From Candidatus Binatia bacterium (GTDB lineage Bacteria > Desulfobacterota > Binatia > Bin18): 64,000 nt of DNA. The stretch lies in NCBI GenBank assembly GCA_022826945.1, contig JAJDTY010000073.1, forward strand, positions 1 through 64,000. Reading direction: 5' to 3'. Positions within the stretch are counted from its first letter, which is position 1, and the number at the start of each line of letters is the position of its first letter. The notes beneath the pieces were generated by a model. That model had not been told where the DNA came from, ran no database searches, and saw nothing but the letters and a program-made list of their open reading frames with translations. Made by a program: the position numbers and the translations under genes. Of this stretch, positions 28,482-35,452 are shown one piece after another.

Positions 28482-28511
28482 TTGACAATCATCTCCGGTT
28501 TGCGTCACAAT
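28482..28511 (+). promoter_or_regulatory. Predicted sigma70-type promoter of nadA
   Basis: TTGACA at 28482-28487, 18-nt spacer, CACAAT (4/6 match) at 28506-28511; the -10 lies inside the palindrome. Confidence 0.5.
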
Positions 28512-28519
28512 GACGCAAA
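28499..28519. promoter_or_regulatory. Predicted NrtR operator: perfect 9-3-9 inverted repeat
   Basis: TTTGCGTCA-CAA-TGACGCAAA immediately upstream of nadA. Confidence 0.65.
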
Positions 28520-28521
28520 AG

Positions 28522-28542
28522 TATGTGTCTATATTACGCAAA
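28522..28542. promoter_or_regulatory. Possible second, degenerate operator copy
   Basis: TATGTGTCT-ATA-TTACGCAAA; right arm 8/9 and left arm 6/9 identical to the first site, offset 23 bp. Confidence 0.35.
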
Positions 28543-28566
28543 CTAAAGCGTGCGAACTGGAGAGCG

Positions 28567-29583
28567 ATGATGCACAACGGATCGACCGGACCTCAAGAAA
28601 AGACTCCACACCAGCTCTACGAGCACCTGGCGCAACTCGACAGTGGCTATACACTGGACGCCTGTGCGCAATACGCAGCCTGGATTCATGAGATTCACGA
28701 GCTGAAACGCCGGCATAACGCCGTCATACTGGCGCACAATTACCAACGCCCGGAGATTTTTGAGGTCGCTGACGTGATAGGTGATTCCCTCGAATTGGCC
28801 CGCCAGTCAAAACAGGTTGCGTCTGATATCGTTGTCTTTTGTGGTGTGCATTTTATGGCGGAAACGGCCAAGATCGTGAATCCGGAGCGAATGGTGCTCC
28901 TGCCTGACTTGCAGGCAGGCTGCTCTCTGGCCGAGAGCATCACGGGGGAGGCGTTGGCTGATCGGAAGGAAGAACTGCGCCAGGTATATCCCGATCTTCA
29001 GGTGGTCTGTTACGTCAATACGACCGCGGATGTCAAAGCCGAATCAGATGTGTGTTGCACCTCGTCGAACGCGGTCCAAGTGGTAAAAGCGCTCGACACC
29101 GAGAATATTCTCTTTGTGCCTGACGAGAATCTGGCCCGTTATGTCCAGAACGAAACCAGTAAGAATATTATTGCCTGGCAGGGGAACTGCTACGTCCATC
29201 ATCAGATTACGCCGGAACAGATTCAAGAGGTACGGGACAAACTCCCGCAGGTAAAAGTGCTCGTCCATCCCGAGTGCCGGGAAGATGTGCTCGCCCTGGC
29301 GGATGCCGTGCTCTCAACGAGTGCCATGATGCGCTACGCTAAAGAAAGTCCGGCCCAGGAGTTTCTGATCGTTACGGAGTGCGGTCTGTCGGACCGCTTG
29401 CTGTTGGAAGTCCCGGAGAAGAAATTCTACAAGAGCTGCAAGCTGTGCGCCTATATGAAAATGATTACGCTCGAAGGGGTGCGGGACTCTCTGCGTGACG
29501 GACGTTTTGAGATTACGCTCCCGGAAGAGACCCGGATCGGTGCCCAGCGTTCACTTGACCGTATGCTGGCACTCAATGCATAG
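28567..29583 (+). CDS. nadA: Quinolinate synthase
   Basis: AVILAHNYQRPEIFEVADVIGDSLELARQ, MVLLPDLQAGCSLAESI, HPECREDVL; start placed downstream of the operator. Confidence 0.95.
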   Translation: MMHNGSTGPQEKTPHQLYEHLAQLDSGYTLDACAQYAAWIHEIHELKRRHNAVILAHNYQRPEIFEVADVIGDSLELARQSKQVASDIVVFCGVHFMAETAKIVNPERMVLLPDLQAGCSLAESITGEALADRKEELRQVYPDLQVVCYVNTTADVKAESDVCCTSSNAVQVVKALDTENILFVPDENLARYVQNETSKNIIAWQGNCYVHHQITPEQIQEVRDKLPQVKVLVHPECREDVLALADAVLSTSAMMRYAKESPAQEFLIVTECGLSDRLLLEVPEKKFYKSCKLCAYMKMITLEGVRDSLRDGRFEITLPEETRIGAQRSLDRMLALNA

Positions 29584-29592
29584 TATGCTCCT

Positions 29593-30279
29593 GTGGGCAG
29601 AGCAAACGAGGGCCAGCGCAGCGCAAAACAAGTTCATCCGCGTGTAGCCGTTGATGCGGTGCTCTTTACCCTTACCCAGGGAGCCCTCCGCACGCTGCTG
29701 GTGAAAATTAAGAAGGGTGGGTTCGCGGGCCGCTGGGCGTTCCCCGGTGGTCTGGTTCAGTTGGACGAATCGCTCGATGCTGCGGCCCAGCGCGAGCTGT
29801 ATGAAAAAACAGGCGTACAGGACCTCTACCTGGAGCAATTGTATACGTTTGGCAGTGCGACCCGAGACCCCTCCGCACGAACCGTATCGGTCGCGTATTT
29901 TGCCCTCATCCCGCCGCTCGCGCAGACTCCCTATCTCGGGGAAAAATATTCGGACATTGCCTGGTTCCCGGTGCATGATCTGCCTAAGCTTGCCTACGAC
30001 CATAACGCCATAGCGGAATATGCGCTGCAAAGGCTCCAGAGCAAATTGGGCTACGCGAATATCGTCTACAGCCTCCTGCCGCAAGAATTTACGGTTGCGG
30101 AGCTACAGGGGGTCTATGAAATCATCCTCGATCGTCAGCTGGATCGTCGAAATTTCAGACGAAAAATTATCAGATCCGGTCTGCTCAAGCCCCTCTTGAA
30201 AACACGGAGAGGCGCGCACCGACCGGCCCAACTCTATACATTTTCCCAGCGCCAGCCCATGCAGCTTGACGTGCTATAA
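29593..30279 (+). CDS. nrtR: NrtR-like Nudix-related transcriptional regulator
   Basis: Nudix-like GGLVQLDESLDAAAQRELYEKTGV with E-to-K in the REUxEExGU core; C-terminal winged-helix-like region YSLLPQEFTVAELQGVYEIILDRQLDRRNFRRKI. Confidence 0.85.
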   Translation: MGRANEGQRSAKQVHPRVAVDAVLFTLTQGALRTLLVKIKKGGFAGRWAFPGGLVQLDESLDAAAQRELYEKTGVQDLYLEQLYTFGSATRDPSARTVSVAYFALIPPLAQTPYLGEKYSDIAWFPVHDLPKLAYDHNAIAEYALQRLQSKLGYANIVYSLLPQEFTVAELQGVYEIILDRQLDRRNFRRKIIRSGLLKPLLKTRRGAHRPAQLYTFSQRQPMQLDVL

Positions 30280-30363
30280 CCGTATATGAGAGCTGGCTGC
30301 TGCGTAGTTGGGCCGGGTAGCGATGTATGGTAGCGTGGGGGTCGGCTCACTGACCGAAAGGAG

Positions 30364-30819
30364 ATGGTACGCATGGTCATCCGTATCGTAGGCGCTCTCA
30401 TGCTCGTCTTGGGGCTTGGTGCCGTGCTCGCTGCACCAGGGCACTCTCCGGCTATTGTTTTGGCCGAGACGAGTCTGACTGCCGAAACCACGCCCGGGCC
30501 AGAAAAGAAACCATTAGTAACCCCGCTCTCAACCCATAGCAGTCTGCCCGCCACCTTATCGCCCGATCTGTTCAGCGGAGCAGTCAGAGACGGTTACATC
30601 ATCGCTCAAACCATCCCGGACGTACTGGCCGGGCTGCACTGCTACTGTGGCTGTGATCGGTCCATGGGGCACGGCAATCTCCTGGATTGCTTTGTGGACG
30701 ATCACGCCGCCGGTTGAATGCACTGTTTACACGAAGCGCAGGATGCGCAGACGCTATTTGAAGCAGGAGCCCCGCCGGAAGTCATCCGGGATTTTATTGA
30801 TCAGAAGTACGGCAACTAG
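30364..30819 (+). CDS. Candidate selenoprotein: exported PCYCGC-type protein read through in-frame TGA (30715-30717)
   Basis: ...LHCYCGCDRSMGHGNLLDCFVDDHAAG-[TGA]-MHCLHEAQDAQTLFEAGAPPEVIRDFIDQKYGN*; family-like sequence continues in frame for 33 codons to TAG. Confidence 0.6.
30736..30748 (+). promoter_or_regulatory. Candidate bacterial SECIS hairpin
   Basis: GCGCA-GGA-TGCGC, perfect 5-bp stem with G at both first loop positions; loop starts 23 nt after the TGA. Confidence 0.4.
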
Positions 30820-30832
30820 GGCAGGGTGCGGC

Positions 30833-31615
30833 CTACGCGTCTTTGAGATAAAAACGGACACCACAGACTTCCACCTGGTCATCTGACACACGGCACCCGC
30901 GTTGCTCTGCCCTTGTCAGCAGCCCCTGGGTGTCGGCAACAACGAGGTCAACTCCACCCAGACCATCTCCGCGCCCATCCGTGGCCTCAACAAACCGCAC
31001 GTCGGCATTCTCCAGCGGAAAGCTCAGGCGGCCCTGATCGTCCTGCCGGAGTGGAGTGCCCGCGATGTCTGCCCATCTCTGGGCCATGGATTGTGGGTCG
31101 TGGGACTGCAACTCAACCGCAGAGAAGCCGCTGACCACCTCAGTCCGCCGGGCGGTGTCCCAGCCATCTCCACCAGCGGGCTCCCAATGCCCCTCGGGCT
31201 CATTCTTCGGGTCCCAGTCGAGTTCAAAGAAGGCGCCCCCCGTGTCGCCGGGGTGAAGCTGCATGCACTGGAAGCCGTGAATATCCTGCTCCCAGGCAAT
31301 CCGGACGCCGAGTGCCTGCGCCTGGGCCCTGCGAGCCCGTTGCGTTTCACGGCTGTCGCACTGGCAGATGACCATATAGCCGCCATCGCCGTTGCGCCGC
31401 CGGAGAAAGCGACCGGCTGCGGTGTTGTCTTTCGTTGGTGCGACAACCTCAAAAAAGTTTGAGCCGACTGGAAACAGCGAGTTCTCCAGGCCGAAAACAC
31501 CCACACCGTCATCAACAAAGCACACTTCAAGGCCGAAGATGGATGTGAGGTCCTCGACCACAGGGGCGAGCTTCTCCGCAACAAAACATACCTGTCGTAA
31601 CCGTATCGTCATCAC
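30833..31615 (-). CDS. VOC (glyoxalase-like) superfamily protein
   Basis: RLRQVCFVAEKLAPVVEDLTSIFGLEVCFVDDGVGVFGLENSLFPVGSNFFEVV. Confidence 0.75.
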   Translation of the reverse strand: MMTIRLRQVCFVAEKLAPVVEDLTSIFGLEVCFVDDGVGVFGLENSLFPVGSNFFEVVAPTKDNTAAGRFLRRRNGDGGYMVICQCDSRETQRARRAQAQALGVRIAWEQDIHGFQCMQLHPGDTGGAFFELDWDPKNEPEGHWEPAGGDGWDTARRTEVVSGFSAVELQSHDPQSMAQRWADIAGTPLRQDDQGRLSFPLENADVRFVEATDGRGDGLGGVDLVVADTQGLLTRAEQRGCRVSDDQVEVCGVRFYLKDA

Positions 31616-33971: not shown

Positions 33972-34007
33972 ATGATTCGGGTCAATGACCCCCAAAGGAG
34001 TATGTAG
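33972..34007 (+). pseudogene. N-terminal remnant of a VOC protein
   Basis: MIRVNDPQRSM* resembles MIRVNDLDESLKFY of the gloA-like gene at 35057-35452. Confidence 0.4.
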
Positions 34008-34401
34008 GCCACTCAATCCAGCTAAAGATTCTGTCGACCTCGGTATTGTTGTCAGCGACATCACCAAAAGCCTGGACTTTTACCAGGAGGTGCTGGGCCT
34101 CAACAAGAGCGAGGAACTGCCCACCCAGTTCGGCACCCTGCACCGGCTCCACTTCGGCACCAGCGACATCAAGCTGATTGACCCTAAACAGGTTCCAGCA
34201 GCCGGAACCATCGGCCTAGAGAAACAGATCGGGCTCCGCTACATCAGCTTTAGGGTTCACGACATCAGCGCCCTGTGCGTCGAGTTACAAGCCAGGGGCG
34301 TGGAGTTCAGCATGGCTGAGACCGAGGTCCGACCCGGGGTGCGCATGGCTATGGTCAACGATCCCGACGGCAACACGGGTGGGTTCATCCAGCGTGGCTA
34401 A
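33985..34401 (+). CDS. VOC superfamily protein
   Basis: LNPAKDSVDLGIVVSDITKSLDFYQEVLGLNK...; paralogous to 34631-35023. Confidence 0.75.
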   Translation: MTPKGVCRPLNPAKDSVDLGIVVSDITKSLDFYQEVLGLNKSEELPTQFGTLHRLHFGTSDIKLIDPKQVPAAGTIGLEKQIGLRYISFRVHDISALCVELQARGVEFSMAETEVRPGVRMAMVNDPDGNTGGFIQRG

Positions 34402-34434
34402 CAACTCGGGCCGGCCAGCCGCCCCGACCGCGAC

Positions 34435-34512
34435 TCACCACGACAGTCCGGTTTTACGCCTGGTCAGCAGGACGGCTAAGCCTAGCGACACCCCGACTGC
34501 GACCAGGAAGTT
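34435..34512 (-). pseudogene. C-terminal remnant of the 31754-type membrane protein
   Basis: NFLVAVGVSLGLAVLLTRRKTGLSW* resembles LYAVGAIGVSLGSAILLTKRKTELA*. Confidence 0.5.
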
Positions 34513-34578
34513 ATGAGGGGAGGACTGATGTCTTCCGTCCGTTACCGTGACCTGTGTAATTCTTTGATCGTCACAAGA

Positions 34579-34612
34579 CGGCCCTCTCACTCTCCTAGAG
34601 AGGAGAGGGCCG
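34579..34612. terminator. Putative bidirectional terminator between convergent VOC genes
   Basis: CGGCCCTCTC...GAGAGGGCCG, 10-bp perfect arms. Confidence 0.5.
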
Positions 34613-34630
34613 AGCGCCCTCTCCGGTGCT

Positions 34631-35023
34631 TTAGCCGCGCTCGACAAACTCCAGGATATTGCCCTCGGGGTCCTTGATCATGGCGATCCGGGTGCCGGGG
34701 CGGATTTCGGTTTCCGGGATAGTGAACTCCGCGCCTTTGTCCTTGAGGGCCGCACACAGCCCGCTCAGGTCTTTGATCACAAAGGTGAGATAGCCGATGC
34801 CCAAGCGTTTACCAAAACCGTTTGGTGCGGCCGGCGGGACTTCTTTGGGGTCCATAAGCTTGATGTCGCTCGTACCATGCCGGAAGCGATGGATGGTGCC
34901 AAAGGCGGTCGGCACTTCCTCGGTCTTTTCCAGGCCAAGCGTGCCCTGGTAAAAATCGAGCATGGTGCGGATGTCTTTGACAAAAATCCCAACGTCAATT
35001 GAGTCTTTTGCGGGTTGTAACAC
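34631..35023 (-). CDS. VOC superfamily protein
   Basis: MLQPAKDSIDVGIFVKDIRTMLDFYQGTLGLEKTEEV...MIKDPEGNILEFVERG. Confidence 0.85.
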   Translation of the reverse strand: MLQPAKDSIDVGIFVKDIRTMLDFYQGTLGLEKTEEVPTAFGTIHRFRHGTSDIKLMDPKEVPPAAPNGFGKRLGIGYLTFVIKDLSGLCAALKDKGAEFTIPETEIRPGTRIAMIKDPEGNILEFVERG

Positions 35024-35056
35024 AGAGAACTCCTTTTCGTGGCGTGTCGGCTCGTT

Positions 35057-35452
35057 CTATCCGCGGGCGCCTTTGAGATCGATCAGTTCGACCTTGTAGC
35101 CATTCGGGTCTTCAATAAAGGCGATAACCGCGCCGCCGTGCGCCATCGGGCCGGGCTCGCGAACGACGTTGATGCCTTTTCCTTTGAGTTCGTCGCAGGT
35201 CTGATAGATATCATCCACCCCGATAGCCAAATGCCCAAAGGCGTTTCCCTGGTCATAGCTCGAGGTGCCCCAGTTATGCGTCAGCTCAACAACGGTGTTG
35301 TTCTTCTCGTCACCGTAGCCCACAAAGGCCAGAGTAAACTCACCGCCCGGATAGTCCTGTTTGCGCAGCAGTTTCATGCCCAGTCCGTCGCAGTAGAATT
35401 TGAGTGACTCGTCCAAGTCGTTGACCCGAATCATAGTGTGTAAGAACTCCAT
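35057..35452 (-). CDS. gloA: Lactoylglutathione lyase-like VOC protein
   Basis: LHTMIRVNDLDESLKFYCDGLGMKLLRKQDYPGGEFTLAFVGYGDE...VELTHNWG. Confidence 0.88.
   Translation of the reverse strand: MEFLHTMIRVNDLDESLKFYCDGLGMKLLRKQDYPGGEFTLAFVGYGDEKNNTVVELTHNWGTSSYDQGNAFGHLAIGVDDIYQTCDELKGKGINVVREPGPMAHGGAVIAFIEDPNGYKVELIDLKGARG

Follow-up and report, generated by a model that had tools for sequence, protein, structure and literature searches.

A small open reading frame at 30364-30819 on the forward strand of the 64,000-nucleotide stretch of Candidatus Binatia DNA analysed here (the window) raises the question of whether an in-frame TGA codon ends translation or is decoded as selenocysteine (Sec). 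The TGA lies at 30715-30717 and is followed in the same frame by 33 conserved sense codons and a TAG at 30817-30819. Up to the TGA, after the hydrophobic N-terminus, the translation reads LHCYCGCDRSMGHGNLLDCFVDDHAAG; past it, as far as the TAG, it reads MHCLHEAQDAQTLFEAGAPPEVIRDFIDQKYGN. The first-pass annotation had described a signal-peptide ORF with this layout, and both the nucleotide sequence and its translation agree with that description. Under standard table 11 ORF calling the product terminates at the TGA and comprises 117 residues. Judged from sequence comparison, however, Sec decoding of the TGA within a member of the CYCXC family is almost certainly the correct reading.

The ATG at 30373 is a more likely start codon than the ATG at 30364, because a probable ribosome-binding site read in the sequence (AAAGGAG, 30357-30363, forward strand) directly abuts the latter but stands 9 nt before the former, and because no Met stands at the position of 30364 in relatives L004 and L005. 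From this start the gene would span 30373-30819 on the forward strand (148 codons including that for Sec, plus the TAG), the longest reading being that from 30364. Its translation opens with a likely signal peptide or anchor, hydrophobic and without a lipobox Cys (30373-30468, the end being approximate), and continues through a CYCGC motif (30640-30654) to the TGA, which would supply the U of a UMHC tetrapeptide whose second, presumably resolving Cys is encoded at 30724-30726. A separate ORF on the contig of relative L006, about 12 kb away (L033:4001-4075), shows 84% identity to the first 25 residues of the protein, corresponding to the signal peptide.

With the TGA read as a residue, the translation scored 109.4 bits against the NCBIfam model NF041379 ("CYCXC family (seleno)protein", OS_HP4_CYCXC; cut-off 90), with the match covering model positions 2-89 of 90, and 57.1 bits against PF13798 (PCYCGC, Pfam; gathering cut-off 25), bearing out the earlier assignment to PCYCGC-type proteins. 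Both hallmarks of NF041379 membership were found, namely a CYCXC motif with invariant Cys residues (C90, C92 and C94 in all 51 aligned sequences) and a Sec in UxxC that aligns with the Cys of CxxC. The proposal that this is a new selenoprotein did not survive, because NF041379 already names the family a (seleno)protein and two reviews include the OS_HP4 hypothetical protein among the bacterial UxxC selenoproteins (PMC9312934, PMC13188914), the newer of them placing it in PF13798 (PMC13188914). The passages on OS_HP4 in these reviews credit it to Zhang & Gladyshev 2007 and to the Olavius algarvensis Delta 1 symbiont (PMC9312934, PMC13188914). Thus, this family was already on record in 2007, together with its selenocysteine form, and the gene is an ordinary new example that opens no new family. 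It shares with OS_HP4/NF041379 a score above the curated cut-off, a single Sec in UxxC and Cys-containing homologues, but differs in its Candidatus Binatia host and in having nadA and a Nudix gene of the NrtR type as neighbours. The PCYCGC lipoprotein AOT13_14730 of P. thermoglucosidasius likewise has CYCGC and further conserved Cys and is exported; however, it is a Bacillales lipoprotein encoded next to an Fe3+ substrate-binding protein (PMC13068155), whereas the Binatia protein lacks a lipobox Cys and contains Sec.

The relatives of the gene were scanned with one genome per species, which gave 33 loci. A TGA occupies exactly this codon in 6/6 same-lineage Binatota relatives (L001-L006) and in the more distant Binatota locus L007, with the frame intact on both sides in each, while the full-length matches L008-L031 encode Cys there. 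In a 51-row alignment this column (115) holds either Cys or an in-frame TGA in all homologues, confirming that the TGA falls on the first Cys of CxxC as had been proposed; the three CYCGC cysteines, one further Cys, a pair of His and the second residue of the UxxC pair (C118 in alignment numbering) are likewise invariant. As anticipated, an ORF stopped at the TGA loses a conserved C-terminus, since UxxC and the tail beyond it are kept in all relatives, and close relatives with unrelated stop codons or decayed sequence at this point were not found. Among seven close sequences, the codons after the TGA comprise 19 that are invariant, 10 that vary synonymously and four that vary nonsynonymously; by this comparison, the coding sequence downstream of the TGA is under purifying selection.

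A search of the phylum revealed more TGA forms in other families, belonging to separate lineages (L066, L069-L072, L075, L077 and L080). On an 88-column tree, many forks of which are unresolved, about four changes of the Sec/Cys label can be counted, at least two of which are forced by well-supported branches, so on this tree switching between Sec and Cys has occurred more than once. One further CYCXC relative (L032:769-966) has a TGA just past CYCGCD, and its C-terminal motif is altered to CEIW; this copy is probably decaying.

A bacterial Sec codon is expected to be followed by a SECIS element, for which the published limits are a 3-9 nt loop, a 4-16 bp stem, a G in the first two loop positions and a distance of 16-37 nt from the UGA (PMC13188914). 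The hairpin GCGCA-GGA-TGCGC reported by the first-pass annotation is present as described at 30736-30748 on the forward strand, and with its 5 bp stem, GGA loop and TGA-to-loop distance of 23 nt it falls within these limits as a plausible, putative SECIS. It is kept in L001-L006, extending to 6 bp in L001, L003 and L006, and only a 4-bp version occurs in the more distant L007. Codons 5-10 after the TGA, which cover the hairpin, form the longest run of synonymous invariance (0/6 variable against 37/75 elsewhere; Fisher p 0.022 for a run picked after seeing the data). The 64-nt fold does not exceed its shuffles in stability (z +1.18), and of all the TGAs that the window contains, 2.6% are followed by a comparably tight hairpin, so the structure on its own is weak evidence and it is the conservation that counts. 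In another lineage (L069-L072, L075 and L077), the stem is a different one, AGGAG(G)/(C)CTCCT, and encloses a short loop that contains a G. An Rfam scan of 30300-30900 returned nothing above any gathering score.

The genome containing the window (4.7 Mb, 90% complete) encodes the full set of components that had been named as a check on the Sec reading. Profile scores exceeded the cut-offs for selB (384.9 bits) and selD (309.2 bits), and one tRNA-Sec passed the Rfam cut-off (70.7 bits) at a distance of about 240 bp from selA (603.7 bits). Seven matches to the UGSC family were also detected (loci L091-L097 of this genome, G000), of which six exceed the cut-off. In every match a single in-frame TGA occupies the U position of the motif, which is UGSC in five matches, UGAC in one and UGGC in another; Sec decoding is therefore, as read from these motifs, in broad use in this organism. 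Within one genome, these matches also amount to a notable enlargement of a single selenoprotein family. Formate dehydrogenase was considered as a second Sec marker, and the best FdhA match in the genome had no in-frame TGA. Among 13 TGA-form genomes checked, 12 contain selB. The exception is G198, listed as 100% complete, in which no selA, selB or tRNA-Sec was found over the cut-off despite a CYCXC relative with an in-frame TGA (L060, G198:C10:18418-18681) that reads UENYC, with one extra residue; the copy may be dead, the contig may be a stray one, or the machinery genes may be missing. The presence of tRNA-Sec and selA was dropped as a means of telling Sec-form from Cys-form genomes, because most Cys-form genomes carry this machinery as well and its presence alone does not discriminate.

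The TGA could instead be a nonsense mutation or a sequencing error in a decayed gene, a reading to which the origin of the DNA in metagenome assemblies only, and the TGA-bearing G198 locus where Sec machinery was not detected, lend some weight. Such an accident would, however, have to recur at this very codon in seven further Binatota assemblies, each with its frame preserved on both sides, and to be followed by change that is mostly synonymous; we therefore regard it as very improbable. Equally small is the chance that the TGA is a true stop, yielding the truncated 117-residue product of standard ORF calling and leaving the remainder as a remnant. TGA does serve as a stop in the window, where at least one other gene, dus, ends in it, but a remnant would not be expected to retain UxxC and the C-terminal tail in all relatives under purifying selection. 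The same dus stop, together with the complete Sec machinery and a homologous column that holds Cys but never Trp, argues against reading the TGA as another residue, such as Trp through a changed code or readthrough, which is the most improbable of the three.

According to the favoured reading, the ORF would encode an exported selenoprotein of the CYCXC family (OS_HP4, PF13798). SelB carrying Sec-tRNA-Sec would recognize the hairpin just past the UGA and insert selenocysteine, and translation would then run on to the TAG at 30817, yielding a protein of 148 residues that bears a U-x-x-C pair. In the predicted structure of this protein, the domain from about residue 61 onward (pLDDT 96-99) is a small helical bundle in which a long C-terminal helix begins with the UxxC, and a further helix is predicted at residues 2-14; the compact helical domain is probably located outside the cytoplasm. 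A sequence search of the PDB identified no relative, and a Foldseek comparison of the model with the PDB gave no significant match (best E 1.9), so the fold offers no functional lead. Six conserved Cys/Sec positions and two invariant His, together with export, suggest from sequence and model either thiol/selenol redox activity or binding of a metal (Fe, Cu or Zn). The function that we favour, a redox-active metal-binding role, has about an even chance of being right.

Immediately upstream on the forward strand lie nadA, encoding quinolinate synthase (28510-29583; PF02445, 398.6 bits), and a gene for a Nudix protein with an NrtR-type winged-helix domain (29593-30279; PF21906, PF00293). The order nadA, NrtR-type Nudix, CYCXC is shared by many Binatota loci (L001, L002, L007, L013-L018, L020, L024, L068, L073, L074 and L078, with L073 and L074 being L015 and L014 arrived at by a different route). 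It occurs with both Sec and Cys forms and is partial or absent at other loci; in L003-L006, neither nadA nor the Nudix gene was found beside the CYCXC gene. Downstream, a glyoxalase-like gene is located at 30833-31615 and a cluster of three small glyoxalase/VOC-family genes at 33985-35452. Because the upstream order is held in Sec and Cys forms alike, it can be proposed that in Binatota CYCXC is functionally linked to the synthesis of NAD or to the control of that synthesis, but we consider this unlikely. Were it true, the redox or iron state around this Fe-S enzyme pathway would be what the exported selenol protein serves or senses.

We found no earlier report of a Binatota lineage with the Sec form. 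The present case adds such a Sec-using lineage to a little-studied selenoprotein family and provides a clean comparison of Sec and Cys forms. Gene callers that end the ORF at the TGA miss both the UxxC and the C-terminal helix, and the conserved neighbourhood could help to find the function of CYCXC proteins.
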